In this document: positions 9,866 to 63,700 of the stretch, in pieces
Position numbering within the stretch: position 1 is the stretch's first letter
How the letters are laid out: each line of letters opens with the position of its first letter
Origin: Arenicola marina
Taxonomy: Eukaryota > Annelida > Polychaeta > Arenicolidae
Direction: 5' to 3'
Assembly: GCA_964019135.1 (NCBI GenBank)
Contig: OZ025257.1
Span: 40,937,798 to 41,001,797 of the forward strand
Length of the DNA stretch: 64,000 nucleotides
Notes under the pieces: generated by a model
Seen by the model: the letters and a program-made list of their open reading frames with translations, nothing else
Told to the model about the DNA's origin: nothing
Database searches by the model: none
Made by a program: the position numbers and the translations under genes

Positions 9866-23760
<13,895 letters not shown>

Positions 23761-31300: not shown

Positions 31301-34300
31301 TAATGACCGCGAATCGATCGACCATGCACTGACTGACAGATGCCCATCACACTATAATATCAAGTATGATCGTGTCGTGGTGTCGCAGGCTCGGAGAGCA
31401 AGGTGTTGGTGGGCCTTCTGGAGCTACGTCTGGAGCTGATCCCGAAGACAACGCAGCAGGTGACTAACGTCATCGTGACGACTCAGCTGAACCTGGAGCG
31501 GAGCAGGCAGGCGGAGAAGGAACGATTGTTCCTGGTGTACGCCAAGCAATGGTGGAAGGAATTCCTTCAGATACGTCCGGAGCACAAGCAACGCCTCGTC
31601 AAAATATTTGCTCAGGTGACACAGTCAACGGAATGTCTATCTGATCAATATACGTGCACCGTCATTTTTACCCAAACTACATGAGAAAAACTAAACTTTT
31701 CGAGTGGGATTTGGGGTTTTATTTTGTTATTTCCGTTTCCAAGGCCATCAGGCCGAAAGTACGCAATATGAACGAGTCAATACAAACGAAAAACAGAGTG
31801 AACAAACTAGGGTTATGATTCGATCAGTATATATGATCCATTGCATATTTTTCATATTGATGGCTCAGTGATTGTCAACTTTGATATATTTAATTTTCCC
31901 CGCTGTATGCTGCAAATGTGGCTATAGTTACATTATAACCCCAAATGCGTTTTGATGAGCAAATTTGCGAAATCTCGACCAGCTTGCCAATGCTAGAATA
32001 CTAGTATTTCGGTTTCTCACCATGCCATCAAGCGAACAACTACCAATGGATCACGGTGTACACCAGTAAATCATTTCTGTAACTGATGTGATTATCACTG
32101 CGTTATGCATTGTCTCTCTGTCAGGACGAGAACGCCAACAACCGCCCGGCCTGTGGTTACGTGGCACCCCTCCGGGCCGGCCGTCTCCTTGACAACCCGC
32201 GTCAGGCCGCCCGCTTCGTGAGTCTCCTTGGTTACGAGAAGGTGGCGGCCATTGGGGCGGGGGAGCAGGCCGAGCAGTGGGCCTCCATGCACGCCTTCCT
32301 GGCCAGGAGCAAGGGGGTAAGTCATCTCAGCCGCCTCACCGTGACCATTATATTGTATAGCCCTACATTTATACCCATAATATGCAGTTTTACAGATAGC
32401 TAAGCCACTGTTATACTTGACATTGTATAATAACCACCGTGGATCGATAGCGGTAGTGTTTGTTTTTCTGGCGCATAATATATGTTTGATTGTTAAACAT
32501 ATAAGAATTCTGATGTGATCTTGACATCTAATCTATTTTAAATCAATAATTTTCAGTATCTATTTATTTTACGTTTATTATAGACATTGTACAATTATTT
32601 ATAGAATGTTCACAATATATACTACTTTGAATCAAAATGTTAACTATCTATTTTTTATACGTCTAAGTAAGTATCAACCAATCCTGGTTCAATATGGGCC
32701 AATACGTCGTGTACCTAAAACGTCGCTATAGAGAGGTATATGCCTTCCCCATTTGCATTACGCTAACTTGTATGCCTTATAATCCCGCTGTTGAAATTCA
32801 TCTATTAAAGAAAATCACGAATACAGGTATAAATAGAAGTCTTTAAACATCTAGATACATATTGAGGTTGGCATCCGTCCGTCTGCGAAAGACGATGGAT
32901 TTGCAGCTTTGTTGTGGTTTAAGTAATAAGATTAGATACATATATAAATATATATTCTAGCCGTCAACAAGATAATGGTTTATTAAATTGATCTATTATT
33001 TCTCCTACTGCTCTTGCCACGCTGACCCGCGTTGCCATGGTCACCTCTCAGGACTGCGAGGACCACGCCGTTCTCCTTTGCTGCCTCCTGCTGGGCTTCG
33101 GCCTCGACGCCTATGTCTGTGTGGGTACCAAGGCTCGGGGAGCCCCCCACGCCTGGGTGCTGGTGCTAGGCAACGACGGTCTGGCCACCTTCTGGGAGAG
33201 CCTCACCGGACACAGGTCAGTCTTACGTCACAGCGATTGGTGTCGCTATGGAAATAAAAGCGCGTGGTTAAATCCGGCTGGAAATCAGGATGAATCTCGA
33301 TGAGGGATTGTAAATGTGCTTATGCATCATATAATTTTCTTCACCTTTTACTTTGGAGGGTACCTGCATTCTATAAAAGTACGTTTACTTATACCTAATA
33401 ATTTATAATAATTTATAAGTATTAGGCAGTAGAAGTAACAAAACGAACGGCGTGGCAACTATAGCCTTGTTGGCTGTAATAATAAAGAGAGGAAACCATT
33501 AGACTCTCGGGAATGCTTGTCGGCGGTTTGCTTCACTCTGGTGTTAAAAACATTAACATTTCTCTCTTTGTGTATGAAAATAGTATTCCAGTCCGAATAC
33601 ACCATTTCTTACCTCAAATATGTCGATGAATATTCACTTATTCATACAATACAGCCACTAAGAGAAGGAATAGCTACACATATATTACCAATTCTCACCC
33701 AAGTATGCTCAGTCTGCCGTCATGATGAACATGTTCATGTCCCTGAATGAGGATCGTGCTGCACTATGGGCCACATACTTACCCTTGTGTGGGACTACGC
33801 ACGCTAGTGCTGGATGCCTGTCATATCCTGACGCTGTATACCCGGTTAGAGGGTAGACATTAATGCTGATCTGCCTCCAGGTACGTCCACCGACGTGTTA
33901 ACCCGGATGATCCCCCCGCGGTGGCTCAGCCCAAGCCGTCATACCCCTACAGGACCGTCGGCTGTGTCTTCAACAACACGTCATTCTACGCCAACTGCCA
34001 GGCAAGTATTTTGATACCTTTTTTTTTGTTATTTTCTATGCTTTGGTTTTTACTTTTTTTTTGTATAATTTTTGTTTAGCTAATTTTTGTTCAGCTAATT
34101 TTTGTATTTATTTTTTAAATTTAGTTATTTGAACAAAAAAAATGTCTACTTTGTAAAAATAACTGCCAGGCAAGAACATGGACAAGTATTGATCATGTCA
34201 CGAAACAAATACATGGCTTTTTTTAAATGTTCGCAATGGCAACTTATCTTTACCACTACCGTATATTTCTACTCTACTTATTTTTTGCAAAAACATTAGG

Positions 34301-37267
34301 CGTACATTCTGTTCTAGTTTTGCAAAACGTTTGCAATTATATTGGTAATACCACCCCGTGTGAGCCTGCAGTGGAAAATTAAATAATGTCAACTCTCTCT
34401 GTCTGAATCCAGGCATCAGACCAGGTGGAGGTCAGCGTCTTTGACCTTTCGGACGCCGCGCGCTGGAAGGCCATGTCTGAAGACGCCATCGCCTCAGTGT
34501 GTCTCCCTGGCTCGGCCCCCGCCTGGCCCGACCTCCCCCCGCTCTCCGCCAACCTCCTCGACCCCGCCCTCCTCAGCAACGACCTCGAGCAGGAGCTCAG
34601 GCTGATGGTCGTCCAGCATCGCAGGGTGAGGAAACACAGGCTGATGGGGGTCTAGGACTACAGGGTGGGTGAACACAGGCTGATGGGGGTCCAGGACTAC
34701 AGGGTGGTAAGCACAGGCTGATAGGGGTCTAGGACTACAGGGTGAGTAAACACAGGCTGATGGGGGTACAGGACTACAGGGTGGGTAAACACAGGCTGAT
34801 GGGGGTCCAGGACTACAGGGTGGGTAAACACAGGCTGATGGGGGTCTAGGACTACAGGGTGGGTAAACACAGGCTGATGGGGGTCCAGGACTACAGGGTG
34901 GGTAAACACAGGCTGATGGGGGTCTAGGACTACAGGGTGGGTAAACACAGGCTGATAGGGGTCTAGGACTACAGGGTGAGTAAACACAGGCTGATGGGGG
35001 TCTAGGACTACAGGGTGGGTAAACACAGGCTGATGGGGGTCCAGGACTACAGGGTGGGTAAACACAGGCTGATGGGGGTCCAGGACTACAGGGTGGGTAA
35101 ACACAGGCTGATGGGGGTCCAGGACTACAGGGTGGGTAAACACAGGCTGATGGGGGTCCAGGACTACAGGGTGGGTAAACACAGGCTGATGGGGGTCCAG
35201 GACTACAGGGTGGGTAAACACAGGCTGATAGGGGTCTAGGACTACAGGGTGAGTAAACACAGGCTGATGGGGGTCTAGGACTACAGGGTGGGTAAACACA
35301 GGCTGATGGGGGTCCAGGACTACAGGGTGGGTAAACACAGGCTGATGGGGGTCCAGGACTACAGGGTGGGTAAACACAGGCTGATGGGGGTCCAGGACTA
35401 CAGGGTGGATAAACACCGGCTGATGGGGGTCCAGGACTACAGGGTGGGTAAACACAGGCTGATGGGGGTCCAGGACTACAGGGTGGGTAAACACAGGCTG
35501 ATGGGGATCCAGGACTACAGGGTGGGTAAACACAGGCTGATGGGGGTCTAGGACTACAGGGTGGGTAAACACAGGCTGATACTTAAACCTAAGAGAGTCG
35601 CATGTTTATTTTAATCTAAGTCAATTCGCCCCTGAAAGGTGTTTTGTTATAGTTTGATCAAATCTGATAGTTAGACGCGTTATAATATGACAGAATTCAC
35701 TGCAGACCTCCAATTATTCTATAACTATTTTTGATACGTGATAGTTTGTGTACGCCGTGTAGATCTAATGCACATTGCTTCCTTATGTCATTAAGGCATA
35801 CTTGTCAATCAAATCATATTTGTGCTATGCATCCATGGCATTGTAAGTACGACATAATACTGTATTATATTGCCTTGGTGTTTATAGACCCCGTCTGTGT
35901 GTTCTGAGTGTTGTTGAGTGATTCCCTCTTCCCTCTGTGGCAGGATGAGGGACTGAGCACGACGTGGGACGACCATCTATGTTACCTCTTGACGCCAGCC
36001 CTGTCTTCCTACGAAACGGAACGCCTGACAGGTCAATAGACATCAACCTTTAGCTATATCTAGGGATTACAGCTTGTAAAACCTCACGTCGAGCTGGACA
36101 TCACGTTTTCACCCTATAGTGAAATGGCGTTCCTCGGTTGAAGCAGCCCTTACCCTTCCCGCCTCTTATATAGCTCCGTAGGTAGCGTTTGGCATTTCAT
36201 TTTGAGGAATTCTTCACATATCGTAGATGTATCCCAAGATATTGTTCGGCCTGTTTTAGTAAAGCCTGCTCAAATATCGCTAAAAGCACAAATTAATTTA
36301 TTAAGATCAATAACTACAGCCGTGTTCAAGTGGTAGCGTATTCGATTGCACAACAACCGGTTACATGTTCAGACGCCGCCTGTGCCGTGACGTCATATAC
36401 ATTGTCTTTGGTTGCCAGGGGTGACGGCTGGGAATGAGGAGTTCCAACAGGCCATCCGGCGCGCGGTGCCTGACGGACACACCTTCAAGGGCTACCCCTG
36501 TCAGTTCGTCCACAGAAACGCCAGGCGGGCCTTCGCTACCTGCCTCAGGTTAGTGCTTTCTCTATTCATGCATATGATGCCACTGACTCCAGGACTTCAA
36601 TTACGATTTCATATCACAGAATATGCTAAATCACGAAAGCGGTTGATACGGAGATTAAAGCCCTGGAAGAGTAATATAATAATATTGCGTTGTTGATAAG
36701 TTTATATAAACGACGATGAAGGTAAAACGCATGATAAAGTACCGTAAACTGCCTTTTTGAAGCCGCGACCTCTATAAGAAAGTTGCGGTTTGACAGTTGC
36801 TATGCAGCTTTAAATACGGCATTTTGCCGAATTTCAAGTAAGCAAGACCCGGGGGGTTGGTGGGGGGGGGGGGGGGGCATACGAAAATTCGCCGGTGTTG
36901 CCAAAATAATTGATTGCATCATAACGTCATCAGTGTAACTTTATGCAGCTACCGATGCTCTTGCGACTAGAATTTAGTAATGGACTAAGTGGTCAGATAT
37001 TTCAATAAGGATAGTATAGTTAAGTAAATAAAAAAAATCCGAACTCATATATTATTCTTGAATATAATGCCAAAAGCAACTGTTTTATTTGAATGCTGCT
37101 AACGTCGTCTGCTTCGCTGTCTTTGAAGGTCACCGGTCTGTGATGAGATCATCAACTGTCGCGGCGACCACGTGCGTCTGGCGGTGCGCGTGCGAGTTTA
37201 CACGTACCCAGAGGCCGCCTGTGCCGTCTGGGTCATGTTCGCCTGCAAATACAAGTCCATTGTATAA
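28333..37267 (+). CDS. CEP76: centrosomal protein of 76 kDa (CEP76), complete
   Basis: Centriolar protein that in vertebrates binds CP110 and restrains centriole re-duplication. The 13 coding exons are 28333-28395, 29222-29333, 29524-29676, 30254-30478, 30865-31050, 31389-31615, 32125-32316, 33052-33215, 33881-34001, 34413-34625, 35944-36031, 36419-36548 and 37129-37267. They total 2013 nt, or 670 aa (human 659). The start MSLPPEKIAELKQIIHNNLS matches the family N-terminus. A C2-like region (NVDPTRRYLYVQALGG, PCACEPDF) precedes EKERLFLVYAKQWWKEFLQI and the degenerate transglutaminase-like core (KGDCEDHAVLLCCLLLG, CVGTKARGAPHAWV). The C-terminus has AVPDGHTFKGYP, RNARRAFATCLR and FACKYKSIV. 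The intron after 34001 uses a GC donor (gcaagt), which the phase and the family sequence (NCQ then a short gap then VEVSVFDL) require. The intron after 34625 opens with a 39-bp minisatellite built from the exon end. Confidence 0.97.
30535..30615 (+). mobile_element. SINE family B, 3' fragment in CEP76 intron
   Basis: Contains ggttcttggtctaatttag, gtacacaaaagcgatc and the catttcatttc tail. It starts 57 bp after the CEP76 exon that ends at 30478. Confidence 0.7.
34626..35580. repeat. 39-bp tandem array derived from a CEP76 exon/intron junction
   Basis: About 24 units of 39 bp start at the 5' splice site of the CEP76 exon that ends at 34625. The last 28 exon bases plus the first 11 intron bases align with the unit over its full 39 bp (about 31 of 39 identical). 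Each unit therefore contains a donor-like AGG|gtgggt, and a few contain the stronger AGG|gtgagt. The length is 13 codons, so the frame is kept. Units with tctagg carry an in-frame TAG and units with tccagg are open. The first unit has the TAG. Confidence 0.96.
36740..36930 (+). mobile_element. MITE family G, copy 1, CEP76 last intron
   Basis: Starts taccgtaaactgcc, contains an internal poly-G tract and ends near gattgcatcataacgtca. The same arrangement occurs in reverse at 42668-42878. Confidence 0.82.
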
Positions 37268-45929: not shown

Positions 45930-48823
45930 AGACTGAGGACCGTGTCCGGAGCGCTATGCTCCACGTCTATGTGGACAGTCACCGCCTCCTGGTCCTGATG
46001 TGATCCAGAGACGCCGGCGTCTTTCAGGATAGACTGATGACCGTGTCCGGAGCGCTATGCTCCACCTCCATGTGGACAGTCACCGCCTCCTGGTCCTGAT
46101 GTGATGCAGAGAGACCGGCGTCCTTCAGGATAGACTGATGACCGTGTCCGGAGCGCTATGCTCCACCACCATGTGGACAGTCACCGCTTCCTGGTCCTGA
46201 TGTGATGCAGAGAGACCGGCGTCCTTCAGGATAGACTGATGACCGTGTCCGGAGCGCTATGCTCCACCTCCATGTGGACAGTCACCGCCTCCTGGTCCTG
46301 ATGTGATGCAGAGAGACGGGCGTCCTTCAGGATAGACTGATGACCGTGTCCGGAGCGCTATGCTCCACCACCATGTGGACAGTCACCGCTTCCTGGTCCT
46401 GATGTGATGCAGAGAGACCGGCGTCCTTCAGGATAGACTGATGACCGTGTCCGGAGCGCTATGCTCCACCTCCATGTGGACAGTCACCGCCTCCTGGTCC
46501 TGATGTGATGCAGAGAGACGGGCGTCCTTCAGGATAGACTGATGACCGTGTCCGGAGCGCTATGCTCCACCTCCATGTGGACAGTCACCGCCTCCTGGTC
46601 CTGATGTGATCCAGAGAGACGGGCGTCCTTCAGGATAGACTGATGACCGTGTCCGGAGCGCTATGCTCCACCTCCATGTGGACAGTCACCGCCTCCTGGT
46701 CCTGATGTGAGCCAGAGAGACCGGCGTCCTTCAGGATAGACTGATGACTGTGTCCGGAGCGCTATGCTCCACCTCTATGTGGACAGTCACCGCCTCCTGG
46801 TCCTGATGTGATCCAGAGAGACTGGCGTCCTTCAGGATAGACTGATGACTGTGTCCGGAGCGCTATGCTCCACGTCTATGTGGACAGTCACCGCCTCCTG
46901 GTCCTGATGTGATCCAGAGAGACCGGCGTCCTTCAGGATAGACTGATGACTGTGTCCGGAGCGCTATGCTCCACCTCTATGTGGACAGTCACCGCCTCCT
47001 GGTCCTGATGTGATCCAGAGAGACGGGCGTCCTTCAGGATAGACTGATGACCGTGTCCGGAGCGCTATGCTCCACCTCTATGTGGACAGTCACCGCCTCC
47101 TGGTCCTGATGTGATGCAGAGAGACGGGCGTCCTTCAGGATAGACTGATGACTGTGTCCGGAGCGCTATGCTCCACCTCTATGTGGACAGTCACCGCCTC
47201 CTGGTCCTGATGTGATGCAGAGAGACGGGCGTCCTTCAGGATAGACTGATGACCGTGTCCGGAGCGCTATGCTCCACCTCCATGTGGACAGTCACCGCCT
47301 CCTGGTCCTGATGTGATGCAGAGAGACGGGCGTCCTTCAGGATAGACTGATGACCGTGTCCGGAGCGCTATGCTCCACCTCCATGTGGACAGTCACCGCC
47401 TCCTGGTCCTGATGTGATGCAGAGAGACGGGCGTCCTTCAGGATAGACTGATGACCGTGTCCGGAGCGCTATGCTCCACCTCCATGTGGACAGTCACCGC
47501 CTCCTGGTCCTGATGTGATCCAGAGAGACGGGCGTCCTTCAGGATAGACTGATGACTGTGTCCGGAGCGCTATGCTCCACCTCTATGTGGACAGTCACCG
47601 CCTCCTGGTCCTGATGTGATGCAGAGAGACGGGCGTCCTTCAGGATAGACTGATGACCGTGTCCGGAGCGCTATGCTCCACCTCTATGTGGACAGTCACC
47701 GCCTCCTGGTCCTGATGTGATCCAGAGACGCCGGCGTCTTTCAGGATAGACTGATGACCGTGTCCGGAGCGCTATGCTCCACCTCTATGTGGACAGTCAC
47801 CGCCTCCTGGTCCTGATGTGATGCAGAGAGACGGGCGTCCTTCAGGATAGACTGATGACCGTGTCCGGAGCGCTATGCTCCACCTCTATGTGGACAGTCA
47901 CCGCCTCCTGGTCCTGATGTGATCCAGAGAGACCGGCGTCCTTCAGGATAGACTGATGACTGTGTCCGGAGCGCTATGCTCCACCTCTATGTGGACAGTC
48001 ACCGCCTCCTGGTCCTGATGTGATGCAGAGAGACCGGCATCCTTCAGGATAGACTGATGACCGTGTCCGGAGCGCTATGCTCCACGTCTATGTGGACAGT
48101 CACCGCCTCCTGGTCCTGATGTGATCCAGAGAGACCGGCGTCCTTCAGGATAGACTGATGACTGTGTCCGGAGCGCTATGCTCCACCTCTATGTGGACAG
48201 TCACCGCCTCCTGGTCCTGATGTGATCCAGAGAGACGGGCGTCCTTCAGGATAGACTGATGACTGTGTCCGGAGCGCTATGCTCCACCTCCATGTGGACA
48301 GTCACCGCCTCCTGGTCCTGATGTGATGCAGAGAGACGGGCGTCCTTCAGGATAGACTGATGACCGTGTCCGGAGCGCTATGCTCCACCTCTATGTGGAC
48401 AGTCACCGCCTCCTGGTCCTGATGTGATCCAGAGACGCCGGCGTCTTTCAGGATAGACTGATGACCGTGTCCGGAGCGCTATGCTCCACCTCCATGTGGA
48501 CAGTCACCGCCTCCTGGTCCTGATGTGATGCAGAGAGACGGGCGTCCTTCAGGATAGACTGATGACCGTGTCCGGAGCGCTATGCTCCACGTCTATGTGG
48601 ACAGTCACCGCCTCCTGGTCCTGATGTGATGCAGAGAGACGGGCGTCCTTCAGGATAGACTGATGACCGTGTCCGGAGCGCTATGCTCCACCTCCATGTG
48701 GACAGTCACCGCCTCCTGGTCCTGATGTGATGCAGAGAAACGGGCGTCCTTCAGGATAGACTGATGACCGTGTCCGGAGCGCTATGTTCCACCTCCATGT
48801 GGACAGTCACCGCCTCCTGGTCC
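45930..48823. repeat. 101-bp tandem array, 28 full periods plus a partial copy
   Basis: Copies start at 45930, 46031, 46132 and so on to 48758 with a constant 101-bp period, so 28 periods show no net length change. Copies differ by a few substitutions at recurring positions. Read on the minus strand, each unit holds the last 24 codons of the zinc-finger gene (from DQEAVTVHMEVEH to the TGA) plus about 30 nt of 3' flank. The copy at 48758-48823 is the coding one, so the rest lies downstream of the stop and would form an array-rich 3' UTR or 3' flank. Each unit also has a short GGAGC/GCTCC stem. Confidence 0.97.
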
Positions 48824-51800
48824 TCAAACAGCTGGTTGCAGGCCCCACACATGTACATGACCCCTTCCCCCTCTTCCGCCAGCTGCTGCCCGTCGCCCAT
48901 GAAGGTCTTGCTGTCCTCCACCACGTTCTCCGTCGCCACCTGGAAGTCACTCATCACCAGCCCCTCGGCCGCCGTCACGTCCTCCGTCGTCATGGCAACG
49001 AAGTGCGTCTCCGCCAACGACCCCATTGGCAGCTCGATAACCTGTTCATTGCCATGGAGACCAGCCGTGGCCAGCGTGGCGACTGAGGAACCGTCGGCCG
49101 GTATGACCTGGAACGCCCCGCCGTGGGTGCCCCCGTGGCCATGGTGACCAACGAGGGTGGCGACCTCGACCAGGGTCTCATCTTGCTCTCCGTCCTCCAG
49201 GACCTCGGCCTCGTCGTCGTCGCCGGCGGTGGCGTACGCGATGACCAGCGGCCCCCCCTGGTCGGCGTCCAGCCCCTCCTCCAGCCCCGGCCCCGACCCG
49301 TCCTCGGCCTCCCGCTTGACGGCCAGCATCCCATCGGCCGGGCCGTAGTCGAGCACCACGCGCCGGATGCCGTCGTCATGGGCGATGGCCTTGCAGTTGT
49401 GCTTGACGAGCGACGAGTTGGCCGTGAAGACCTTGTCGCAGCGGTGACAGCGGTGGCGGCCCTGCCTCGTGTGGGTCACGATGTGGGCGGTCAGCTTGTA
49501 GCGGAACTTGAAGCCCTTGCCGCAGTGGTGACAGATGTGGGGGCGGCTGTCGGCGTGCGCCACCGCGTGCTTGTTCACTGCCGGCAAACACAGATACACC
49601 ATATCAGTCCATCGCTACAGCAGTGGCAACCCATATTGCTTTAATCGAGAAACCCTCTGGCACATGAGACTGATCCAATTGGGCTTTGGAAGAGTGAAAT
49701 TCGAGGTTAATTTTGAGGAAAGAAGATGTGAAAATCATGATGTCGCCACCAAAATATTCCAGGGCTCTGAATACTGAAACTGCGCTACCAACGACATTTT
49801 ATTAATCCATATCATATCTGCCACATATATCTTTTTTTTTAATGTTATATTTCTCTAATTTCATTGTAGTCTTTTCGATACAGTTCCCGGATTTTTAGAT
49901 CATAGTTTTCTTTAGCATGAAATACAATTTTAATAACAGAAGCAGGCGAAGAGATTGGACAAGACGACTTTCGGCATCGCACACTATTTTCCTTTCCCAT
50001 AACAAGTTTTCTTTAGCATGAAATACCATTTTAATAACAGAAGCAGGCGAGGCGAGTGGACACGACGACTTTCTGCATCGCACACTATTTTCCTTTCCCA
50101 TAACCTTTCCCAGGGTTGAGTGTGAGACTCACGTTCGGAGTTGTAGCAGAAGGCCTTGGGGCACTGGTGGCACTTGTAGGGCCGGCGTCCCGTGTGGGTG
50201 TTCTCGTGCTGCTTCAGCGTGGCGCGCTGGGCGAAGGCCTTGCCGCAGTACGTACACACGTGCTTCTTGGTCCGCTCCCGCTCGGCGTCCGTCAGGTGCA
50301 CATGGCTGGAGGGCATAAGGAGGTCCGGGCTCAATCGCAAGTCTTTGAATAGTGTCTTTGGAGTGCAATGATATCGTCAATACGAGAGTGAAAATGAGGG
50401 GTAATATATATGAAAATGATGTACGACGGCATAGGGGGGGGGGGTTTTCTCGGGGAGGACCTGTCCGGGGGGGATTTATCCTAGCGGGGAATTGTCCGGG
50501 GGGGAGTTGTCCGGGGGGGGGGGGTTATCCGGGGGGGACTTGTCGGAGGGGGGAATTGTCGGAGGGGAGTTGTCCGGGGGGAATTGTCTGGGGAGAAATG
50601 GTCCGGGGGGAAAATGTCCGGAGGGGATTTGTCATAGAACCGGGTACACTATCTGTACAAGTCATGTATCGTACGCAGCAGGCTATATATAGTGAAATAG
50701 ACCGGGTTTGGCGTCTCACTACTTCAAACTATTTGTATTAATCCCAATAACAATTCATGTATTACATATACATATATTGTTACTATGTCAGGCAGCCTGA
50801 ACACACGCCTACACGCCTACAAAGGCCTAGAGGACTGCCCCACTGACCTGTGTTCCAACATACGGGCCCTCTCGAAGAAGCCGCGCCCACAGGTCGGGCA
50901 GAAATGCGACCGCTCTTGGCGGTGAATCCGCTTGATGTGGGCGTTGAGGAACCTGGCGGCGTTGAAGGTCTTGCCGCACTGCTCGCAGCTGCACTTGCCG
51001 CTGGAGCCGTGCACGGTGTCCATGTGGAAGCGCAGGCTGGTGGGCGTCGTGAAGTCCCGCCGGCAGAGCCCGCACTGGCGCTCGGCCAGCGGCGCGTGGT
51101 TGCGGCGCTCGTGCGCTCTCATCTGACCCTTGCGCGTGCACTGGAAGCCGCACTGCTCGCAGCTGAGGACGCGCGTGGCGCCGTGGGAACGCAGGTGGAG
51201 CTGCAGAGCGGCGCGGCGCTTGAAGATCGTCTCGCAGACGCCGCACTTGTAGAGGATGGACGACTCCCGAGGGGGCAGCATCAGGTGCTTCAGTCGCTTG
51301 GCCTTCGCGCGGTGCTCCTCCACGTGGCTCCGGGCGGTCACGTGGTCCGGGAGGACGGCGCCGCACTGCTGGCAGCTGTACGCCTCCCAGTGGGCGGCGG
51401 CGCGGTGACTGGCCACGGCCGACTCGGAGCCCTGGAAGCTGCAGCATTGACACTGGACCGCGCCACCCTCGGCACCTGTAACACAGACACAAGGGAATAT
51501 CACGTGGGCGGCTTGGGCCATGTGATGAGTCGATGGGAACTTGCATGGCCACATATAACGACGGCGGCGTAAGTCGGTAACCAAGAGTAACGGTGCCCGG
51601 CTACCAGAGCCAGCGAGCGAGGTGAGCAGCAATCTCCCTTCTTAAATGCAAACCCAAATAACCATGAATTACGTAAGATAATACATGTTTTTCTCTTACT
51701 TGGTTTTACTTCATAGTCACTGAAAAACCTCACTACAGGGTACATAGGTCTTCAGTAGTCTTTACCCGCCATTGGGACCAAATAAATGAAGCTGTTAAAG

Positions 51801-60724: not shown

Positions 60725-63700
60725 ATGGCCGACAAGTTCGAGTTGCTTGAACAACAATTGGAACATTTCATTGAAAATACGCGACAGTTAGGAATTATTG
60801 TGGCCGACTTTCAACCACAGGGACAGAATGTGCTCAATCAAAAAATGTAATGACCTCAAATGTTTGAAAATGTTACATTTTAGCATAATTGTTGAATTAC
60901 ACGAAGGGCGATAATACAGTTACTTATCAATATTGACAATAATATCGATACCAAAGGCAAACCTGAAATAGAGACTAAGCTTAGTAGAGTCTTGACCTAG
61001 ATAATATTCATATGGAGACTTTTAAGGTGTTGACTAAGCCTAGATGGCTTGTCATGGACCTTCTATTGTAGTATCTGAGTATAGGATATATGCTCACATT
61101 TAGTTTGACCACTGGATGGTTTTGACTGCTGGACCATTAACCGTTGTAGGAGGGTTTGTATTGGTACTGGAGATAATATGGATAGGTGCTACCTAAAATG
61201 CGAGCGTAAATATATATTAATTAAGCTATTCCGGTACATCGAGATTAATATTCAAAATAAATTCTACATCGGATTGCCATAATGCAAATTTAATGTTACA
61301 CTATTTAGATTGTGCTACTATTTCTAAATTATTTACTGGATACTCTCGCATGAAAGTGAAAATGAAAGTGGTTTCCCTGTGATCAATGTCATTAAATAAC
61401 GTTTTGAGAGTGACCGAAATTGTGCTCAGGGCCCACAGGCACAGTAAATCGACTGACACAGGGGAGGGGGGGTGGTAGCCCTGGTACATGCCTCTCTTAC
61501 CACGTCAGTAAACGGAGCAAGGGTGAGAGCCATGCCGCTGACACCCCCGAAAACAAGAAATCGCGGACCGGTGGCTTAAGTTGAAGTTCATAACAAAATA
61601 AATATGCAGTACCTATCCGTCAAGTTGCTCCATTAGATTCCTGAAGCTATCATGACTTTCGTCGGACAGTCATTTCTTTGGTCGGTAGTGTATTTTCTTG
61701 TAATCCGGGCGATTTTTGTCACCTCTTGCTTCGTGTTGAATGCTCTGTCATTTGCCGGACGTCAACAAATACCGCCTGGCAGCGAGTGCTCACACTAAGT
61801 TTGTTTACTACACTGTCCACCACACATTTGATCCCAAAAACTGTGAGGCTCTGAGAGGTCTACTTAAGAAGTTGGGTTTTGATGTAAAATATTTGGTTTT
61901 TAACTCCTAGTTATTTAAGTTGCAGAACATTATTCCAAAGGAGCGGTATAGTGAAATAACTTAGATGCAACAAATATAGGCTTAACTATTTCACTTTATC
62001 CACTGACAACATTTGCCAGCTTGGAGCCTATGACCTGCAGCGCTTATCAGCTTGTTGCTCCTAGCTGATGACACTTGATTGTCATAAAGTGAAACACCCA
62101 ACATTAGTCAATTAGCAGGTTTTGCTCTGGAAAGTCCAATATCATACCATTTGTTGACATCAATGTGTATTAGATCTACCCATTTAATGTATCATTTAAA
62201 TATCCGAATTGCATCACTATGGTCAGATTTGAAAGTATTTTGGTGAATTATAGTCTTATAATCGCTATAGTTGTTAAATGAACTTTCTTATATAATATGT
62301 TTTTGGTATTACCTAAAATTGTTGCAAGTGTCATAATTAGAAAGAAATTTACACATGTTTATAAATAGCAATAGCTAGTTATTGTAACTGTGCTAGATAG
62401 CAACCTGCTAGTGCAAAAAGATTCTATACCTTTCATCACAGGAATGTGATAGAGATGGCACCATTGGTGCAAAAGCAATTTTCTTTTATGGACATTAAAC
62501 TGGCAGTAAGCACTGTATGATATTAACAGAGCTTGCTTATGTATAGCATATATATGTTGTGAGTGTGTTACTTTATTATAATAACTATTCTTGTATATGC
62601 TCATATGTAGTCAGAATTAATTTAATGGTACCAACATGCTTCACATACTTATGTGTTGCCTGACGTGTCATCCTAAACACAAGGCCTAACTAGGGAGATG
62701 TAGATACAGGAAATAACTATATTGCAGCCATACCATGGTCACTGGAGTGCAAGAGATCGATAAACTCAAAGGGCAAGTTCAAGATGTTCAAATACCACTG
62801 GAGGTATTTGAGTAAGTATAATGACAATATAAATGTTTTTTTGTAAAAAATTTAGATTGAATATACTTATAACATTCTTACCAGCAATACCAGTATATCA
62901 ATAAATTAATATAAATATATTAATGTGTATGAACTTTTGACACAACCTTATCTACAACGTCATCTTATATTATGCAGTTGATATTTAGATCAGGCACTCA
63001 GCAGCACTCCAGTAGTAACTGTAGTATCCCATCTCTATCCTACCTGTATATCATTTCTCTTTGTAGCAGCTGTAGTATACTATATCTCTTTGTAGCAGCT
63101 GTAGTATACTATATCTCTTTGTAGCAGCTGTAGTATACTATATCTCTTTGTAGCTGCTGTAGTATACTATATCGCTTTGTAGCAGCTGTAGTATACTATA
63201 TCTCTTTGTAGCAGCTGTAGTATACTATATCGCTTTGTAGCAGCTGTAGTATACTATCTCTCTTTGTAGCAGCTGTAGTATACTATATCTCTTTGTAGCA
63301 GCTGTAGTATACTATATCTCTTTGTAGCAGCTGTAGTATACTACATATCTTTGTAGCAGCTGTAGTATACTACATATCTTTGTAGCAGCTGTAGTATACT
63401 ATATCTCTTTGTAGCAGCTGTAGTATACTATATCTCTTTGCAGTTATATAGACCAGGGGAAAAACCCGCAGCTGTACACCAAAGACTGCATGGAAAAGGC
63501 ACTGATGAAGAATGAGACTGTGAAAGGCAAAATAGATGCATTTAAGGTAAGTTTTTGAAATATGAACAAGCCAGTGAAGCAGTACTCTGCGTTCTGCAGG
63601 ATGGTCAGTTTCACATGTGCACATTCATGCACACTCTCTCGGAATGTCTCGGAATAAATACTATGTACTCACACTTTCGGTTTGCAATGTTTTATTACAT

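Follow-up and report, generated by a model that had tools for sequence, protein, structure and literature searches.

The CEP76 gene of Arenicola marina carries a minisatellite that is a tandem amplification of an exon end together with its 5′ splice site, as the first-pass annotation of this DNA had proposed. Arrays that cross a donor were found at about one in seven of the donors that we sampled in the genome. The CEP76 array probably grew as a neutral minisatellite and is tolerated because splicing takes whichever donor comes first (a "mirage"). A wider reading of the sampled genes is that repeats overrun 5′ splice sites almost like ordinary intron and hardly ever overrun 3′ splice sites or exon bodies, with the 5′-most donor always taken, be it during transcription or through exon definition, and acceptors oppositely constrained; we regard its chances as close to even, if slightly below.

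Structure of the CEP76 array

The window is the whole 64,000-nucleotide stretch of DNA that was analysed. Tandem Repeats Finder detected a tandem array at 34598-35580 with a period of 39 bp, 25.2 copies and 95% matches. Read in register, the array consists of 25 whole units and a 9-nt stub, and unit 3 is 38 bp long. The array of about 24 copies that had been described is thus real, and its unit 1, said to combine the last 28 exon bases with the first 11 intron bases, matches the register (Table 1). The repeat starts 28 nt inside a CEP76 exon, spans the donor at 34625/34626 and covers 955 bp of the 1318-bp intron behind it (34626-35943). The segment 34598-34685, which opens with the exon unit, aligned to later units with E values down to 4e-27, so the likeness along the array is not due to chance. 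When two array units were used as a genome query, 11 matches were found among the best-scoring candidates, all of them within the CEP76 array.

The donor assigned as authentic (AGG/GTGAGG, the slash marking the exon end) fits the reading frame ...CAT CGC AGG/GAT GAG..., and the exon is joined in frame to the next one (HRR/DEGLSTTWDD). The spliced product matched the Pfam families CEP76-C2 (1.8e-56), CEP76 peptidase (4.8e-44) and CEP76_C (4.2e-32). The exon frame and the domain continuity thus speak for the first copy as the authentic one. Further along the array, the block of units 10-16 and the similar block of units 17-23 are likely a higher-order duplication.

The preceding CEP76 intron, at 34001/34002, seems to begin with GC (CCAG/GCAAGT) and would then be a GC-AG intron, as judged from the sequence and the frame. 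Known RNA families and tRNAs were searched for in the window, and none was found.

Table 1. Features of the CEP76 exon, intron and array (positions in the window)
Feature	Position	Strand	Remarks
CEP76 exon of 213 nt, in phase 0 on both sides, last residues ...ELRLMVVQHRR	34413-34625	+	acceptor aatccag/GCATCA, donor AGG/GTGAGG
39-bp minisatellite, 25 units and stub	34598-35580	+	28 nt exonic, 955 nt intronic
Unit 1, 28 exon nt and 11 intron nt	34598-34636	+	contains the authentic donor
In-frame TAG in unit 2	34653-34655	+	present in any decoy-donor transcript; read-through VRKHRLMGV, then stop
Unit 4, GTGAGT donor at 34741	34714-34752	+	scores above the authentic donor
GTGAGT donors of units 10 and 17	34975; 35248	+	likewise score above the authentic donor
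Units 10-16, block of seven units; units 17-23 behind it form a similar one	34948-35220	+	unit list by eye
Next CEP76 exon, DEGLSTTWDD...	35944-36030	+	acceptor ctgtggcag/GATGAG; end approximate

Decoy donors in the CEP76 array

The copied donors were compared with the authentic one. Among the 24 intronic units, 19 carry AGG/GTGGGT and three (units 4, 10 and 17) carry AGG/GTGAGT. Every copy had been said to contain one of these two motifs, which holds for 22 of the 24 and fails for units 3 and 21: unit 21 reads AGG/GTGGAT, and a deletion in unit 3 gives GTG/GTAAGC. Donors were scored from base frequencies, and sites with a score of 6 or more were listed. The score was 8.9 for the authentic donor, 7.6 for GTGGGT, 10.1 for GTGAGT and 8.3 for the GTAAGC of unit 3, while the GTGGAT of unit 21 fell below 6. 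A plausible donor (score at least 7.5) is kept in 23 of the 24 intronic units, the decoys running from 34664 to 35560, and three of them score higher than the authentic site. The background was 7 such sites in 5970 nearby plus-strand positions, versus the 23 decoys in the array. Scores far below the authentic site, which the first-pass annotation had named among the signs that the motifs are passive, were not observed. Pairing with the 5′ end of U1 was also predicted. It was -9.5 kcal/mol for the authentic donor, stronger for 22 of the 23 decoys (-10.1 to -11.7 kcal/mol), and -8.0 kcal/mol for the GTAAGC site of unit 3. By these measures the decoys are not weak, and they may compete with the authentic donor as had been annotated.

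Reading through the exon end gives VRKHRLMGV and then the TAG at 34653, which lies in unit 2, not in the first unit as had been annotated. Since all decoys are located downstream of this TAG, any product made from one of them would stop there, after 9 residues. The expectation that most of them would stop after about ten residues was right about the stop, and it applies to all of them. Consequently no coding block would be inserted, and later donors would not add multiples of 13 residues as had been suggested; the 38-bp unit 3 also breaks the 13-codon rule. Decoy-donor mRNAs of CEP76 would presumably be degraded.

Arrays over donors and acceptors in the sampled exons

The genome was searched with the myosin head (77 matches) and kinesin motor (133 matches) families, and 60 loci were taken. 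Five kinesin loci on small contigs (L043, L044, L046, L047 and L052) were dropped before counting because of several in-frame stops and a foreign look. The best 40 of 78 exons matching dynein DHC_N2 were added, which gave 95 exons in the first set. A second set, chosen beforehand, consisted of kinesin ranks 31-70; 20 of its 40 exons were counted, and the total was 115. SNF2 gave a further 66 matches, and the counts cover the myosin, kinesin and dynein exons. Splice sites were placed near the HMM edge with a simple scoring scheme based on base frequencies. An array was called where a 40-nt window had a nearby copy matching at least 28 of 40 positions.

In the 95 exons, the 40-nt windows showed arrays over 16 donors and 2 acceptors and over no exon middle. 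Intron windows contained an array in 25 cases at +100 from the donor and in 16 cases at -140 from the acceptor. After pooling the 115 exons, several of which belong to the same genes, 17 donors (one doubtful) versus 3 acceptors were crossed (Fisher p 0.0017), and the exon middle was still free of arrays (0/115). A stricter count excluded the donor of L037, whose copy lies upstream and which was apparently misassigned. It gave 16/114 donors versus 3/114 acceptors, with 14 exons crossed only at the donor, one only at the acceptor and two at both (exact p 0.001), and p ranged from 0.001 to 0.004 over six settings of window and threshold.

The position of the arrays was followed with a sliding 30-nt window. 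On the donor side, arrays were present in 23/92 windows at +30, 16/95 at the donor, 12/95 at -30 and 3/95 at -60; they run on from the intron and reach roughly 60 nt into the exon. On the acceptor side the numbers were 14/95 at -45, 3/95 at the site and 0/95 at +30, and the arrays fade before the acceptor. Where an array was present 60 nt into the intron, the donor was crossed in 16 of 27 cases and the acceptor in 3 of 20 (Fisher p 0.003), the remaining 11 and 17 arrays stopping short of the splice site.

The asymmetry was found at GC-rich boundaries. With a window GC of at least 0.55, arrays crossed 14/64 donors versus 0/56 acceptors, and no asymmetry was seen at a GC of 0.40-0.55 (2/42 donors versus 3/47 acceptors). 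GC content does not explain the asymmetry, and the effect is confined to GC-rich boundaries. By family, donors versus acceptors were 9/40 versus 1/40 for dynein, 5/30 (one doubtful) versus 0/30 for myosin and 3/45 versus 2/45 for kinesin. The asymmetry was absent from the 20-exon replication set taken alone, in which 1/20 donors and 1/20 acceptors were crossed, both in exon L118. Deeper in the intron, arrays were present on the donor side in 32/115 exons versus 18/115 on the acceptor side at 220 nt (p 0.04), and in 32/115 versus 19/115 at 180 nt (p 0.06). The supply of arrays on the two sides is not fully equal, and this donor-side excess at 180-220 nt slightly lowers the odds that we give to our reading of the arrays.

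Decoys in the other donor-crossing arrays

Decoy copies outside CEP76 were counted at a match of at least 16/24 nt. Across 16 donor-crossing arrays, GT was kept in 162 of 167 decoy donors, and in 15 of these arrays 129 of 161 decoys equalled or exceeded the score of the authentic donor. The copied exon tail ranged from about 7 to 83 nt. In 6 or 7 of the 16 arrays the modal spacing of the repeats was divisible by three, which is no more than about the chance level. The array of L020, for example, has a 62-bp period and 24 copies with GT in all 24, and that of L040 has a period of about 100 bp with GT in 14/14 copies. The same layout at 16 other sampled donors, with decoys mostly scoring like the authentic sites, suggests that the decoys of CEP76 are normally ignored.

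A shorter case is present in the same window as CEP76. There a GMDS exon has its end (17192-17231, donor at 17218/17219) copied once at 17247-17286, 55 bp apart, with 82.5% identity over 40 bp, and the copied donor is weak. In the survey, the 140-nt kinesin exon of L118 has arrays across both of its boundaries, and the six donor copies within the sequence covered are exactly 61 bp apart and keep GT.

A faster decay of decoy acceptors than of decoy donors was considered and rejected: AG was kept in 8 of 23 copies in register (4 acceptors), and in 15 of 23 when a 1-nt shift was allowed by eye. G-skew or R-loops as a cause were also rejected, the skew being inconsistent.

Other arrays and side observations

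The window contains further tandem arrays. One of them, on the minus strand at 45930-48824, has about 29 copies of a 101-bp unit and starts within the final coding segment of a zinc-finger gene (DQEAVTVHMEVEHSAPDTVISLS, then the stop). It repeats the gene end, and by eye its units include the stop codon. A 48-bp array at 10099-10867 has 16 copies at 99%, with donor-like and acceptor-like motifs on both strands (by eye). Splice-like motifs were also seen in a 30-bp array at 2631-2966 (CCCAGGTGAG in the consensus unit) and in a 29-bp array at 63056-63440 (TCTCTTTGTAG in the consensus unit). A 36-bp array at 12080-12208, whose consensus contains CCTGCCTAG, ends near the acceptor of a GMDS exon.

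Elsewhere in the assembly, a myosin heavy chain gene on the minus strand (G000:C4:366000-385000) matched the profile region of about 89-154 five times and that of about 590-640 four times, in tandem, an arrangement that would resemble clusters of mutually exclusive exons. On contigs C204, C390, C504 and C536 of G000, matches to kinesin, dynein or SNF2 contain TAA and TAG in frame and no TGA. They perhaps come from an organism that reads TAA and TAG as amino acids, such as a ciliate living with the animal. On the mitochondrial contig, COX1 has 13 in-frame TGA codons and AGA is best read as serine, as in invertebrate mitochondria. ARAGORN placed the tRNAs in the order Ser, Asn, Asp, Tyr, Gly. 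With the protein genes located by eye, the order is Ser-ND2-COX1-Asn-COX2-Asp-ATP8-Tyr-Gly-COX3, which we take to be the annelid ground pattern. Amphioxus, a candidate in view of its mirages, was rejected on this code and gene order. Lamprey, a candidate because of the 46% GC, was also rejected: lamprey haemoglobin V gave only three matches, at 26-27%.

Discussion

Neutral growth of the CEP76 array may be pictured as follows. A tandem duplication across the exon-intron boundary would have started the minisatellite, and unequal exchange or slippage would then have lengthened it. The spliceosome presumably takes the first donor that it meets at the exon end, and the later decoys would leave with the intron. 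Because the first donor would be used and the decoys removed, the array would be selectively near neutral. More generally, introns seem to be where arrays originate, and their extension over a donor seems to be harmless. Arrays that cross an acceptor would be removed by selection, since splicing would take the copy lying upstream before it reached the true acceptor.

Regulated or leaky use of the decoys would give the array a function. Some transcripts would carry the TAG at 34653 and be degraded, or CEP76 would be truncated soon after HRR, and the array length would tune CEP76 output. Such use is made plausible by the good donors in 23 of 24 intronic units, three of which exceed the authentic one, and by the stronger U1 pairing in 22 of 23. 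It also has a precedent in the minisatellite of human IFI6 (6-16), for which the introduction of PMC4526556 credits Turri 1995 with the finding that two of the repeat units further downstream serve as donors, with three mRNAs as the result; the first-donor rule is therefore not universal. Like that of IFI6, the CEP76 minisatellite lies at an exon end and repeats the donor site, but in CEP76 the use of any decoy would include a stop codon. However, the layout is found again, with differing periods, in a number of motor-protein genes, which is what neutral DNA should show, and the later decoys would lengthen the exon to as much as about 1.1 kb. We consider decoy use unlikely. Far less probable is an active helper role, in which the G-rich array would strengthen the first donor as an intronic enhancer or a landing pad for U1. 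Most CEP76 units do have GGGGG and GGG runs, and the mean GC skew over the 400 nt past the donor was +0.20 for 15 donor-crossing arrays versus +0.02 for 80 other introns. This skew was inconsistent (from -0.59 to +0.99), however, and GC-rich exon tails by themselves raise the GC of an array.

The asymmetry could also come from mutation instead of tolerance, if donors were hot spots of minisatellite birth. The somewhat commoner donor-side arrays at 180-220 nt into the intron (32 versus 19 and 18 of 115) fit this idea, and on the acceptor side the pyrimidine tracts may undergo duplication less readily. Against it, the donor windows had no excess of arrays (16/95) relative to the intron windows nearby (25/95), the acceptors (2/95) were depleted against theirs (16/95), and the mean GC was alike in donor and acceptor windows (0.54 and 0.53). 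We hold such seeding to be improbable, a little more so than decoy use. Neutral growth with use of the first donor remains our preferred explanation for CEP76.

The "mirages" of amphioxus are minisatellite-like tandem duplications over exon-intron boundaries with AG/GT in many units. The accessible portions of the two reports name Adh3, the globins BflGb6/9, PGBD5 and TnC, and describe the mirages gene by gene, at both types of boundary (PMC3087553, PMC3902484). Regular splicing was reported despite the mirages, from RT-PCR of the globins and earlier data on Adh3, and the unit lengths were 10-72 bp in Adh3 and 150-160 bp in the globins (the relevant part of PMC3087553). Like these mirages, the CEP76 units span an exon-intron boundary (unit 1, then 24 similar units), their splice signals are kept, with donors of at least 7.5 in 23/24 intronic units, and the 39-bp unit is inside the reported range of lengths. 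Length polymorphism or somatic instability is a further mark of mirages; in the one assembly covered here, the search with array units pointed to a single place. Unlike them, the arrays studied here belong to an annelid and are dominated by donors, with about one sampled donor in seven affected. The CEP76 array is of the same kind as the amphioxus mirages, and what is new is the scale and the donor polarity. Long minisatellites also occur in annelid metallothionein genes of earthworms; those are placed within intron 1, according to the accessible part of PMC12783039, whereas the CEP76 array crosses a splice site. A genome-wide count or a donor-acceptor asymmetry of such arrays did not turn up in literature searches over open-licence PMC papers.

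For genome annotation, such arrays can yield long stop-free frames in introns and false donor calls. The choice among equal 5′ splice sites has been debated ever since duplicated-site constructs were reported in the 1980s (Lang and Spritz; Kuhne et al.). If donors are indeed overrun by repeats and the first one is taken, this genome would be a genome-scale natural experiment on the choice among many identical donors, with two dozen of them at some exons.
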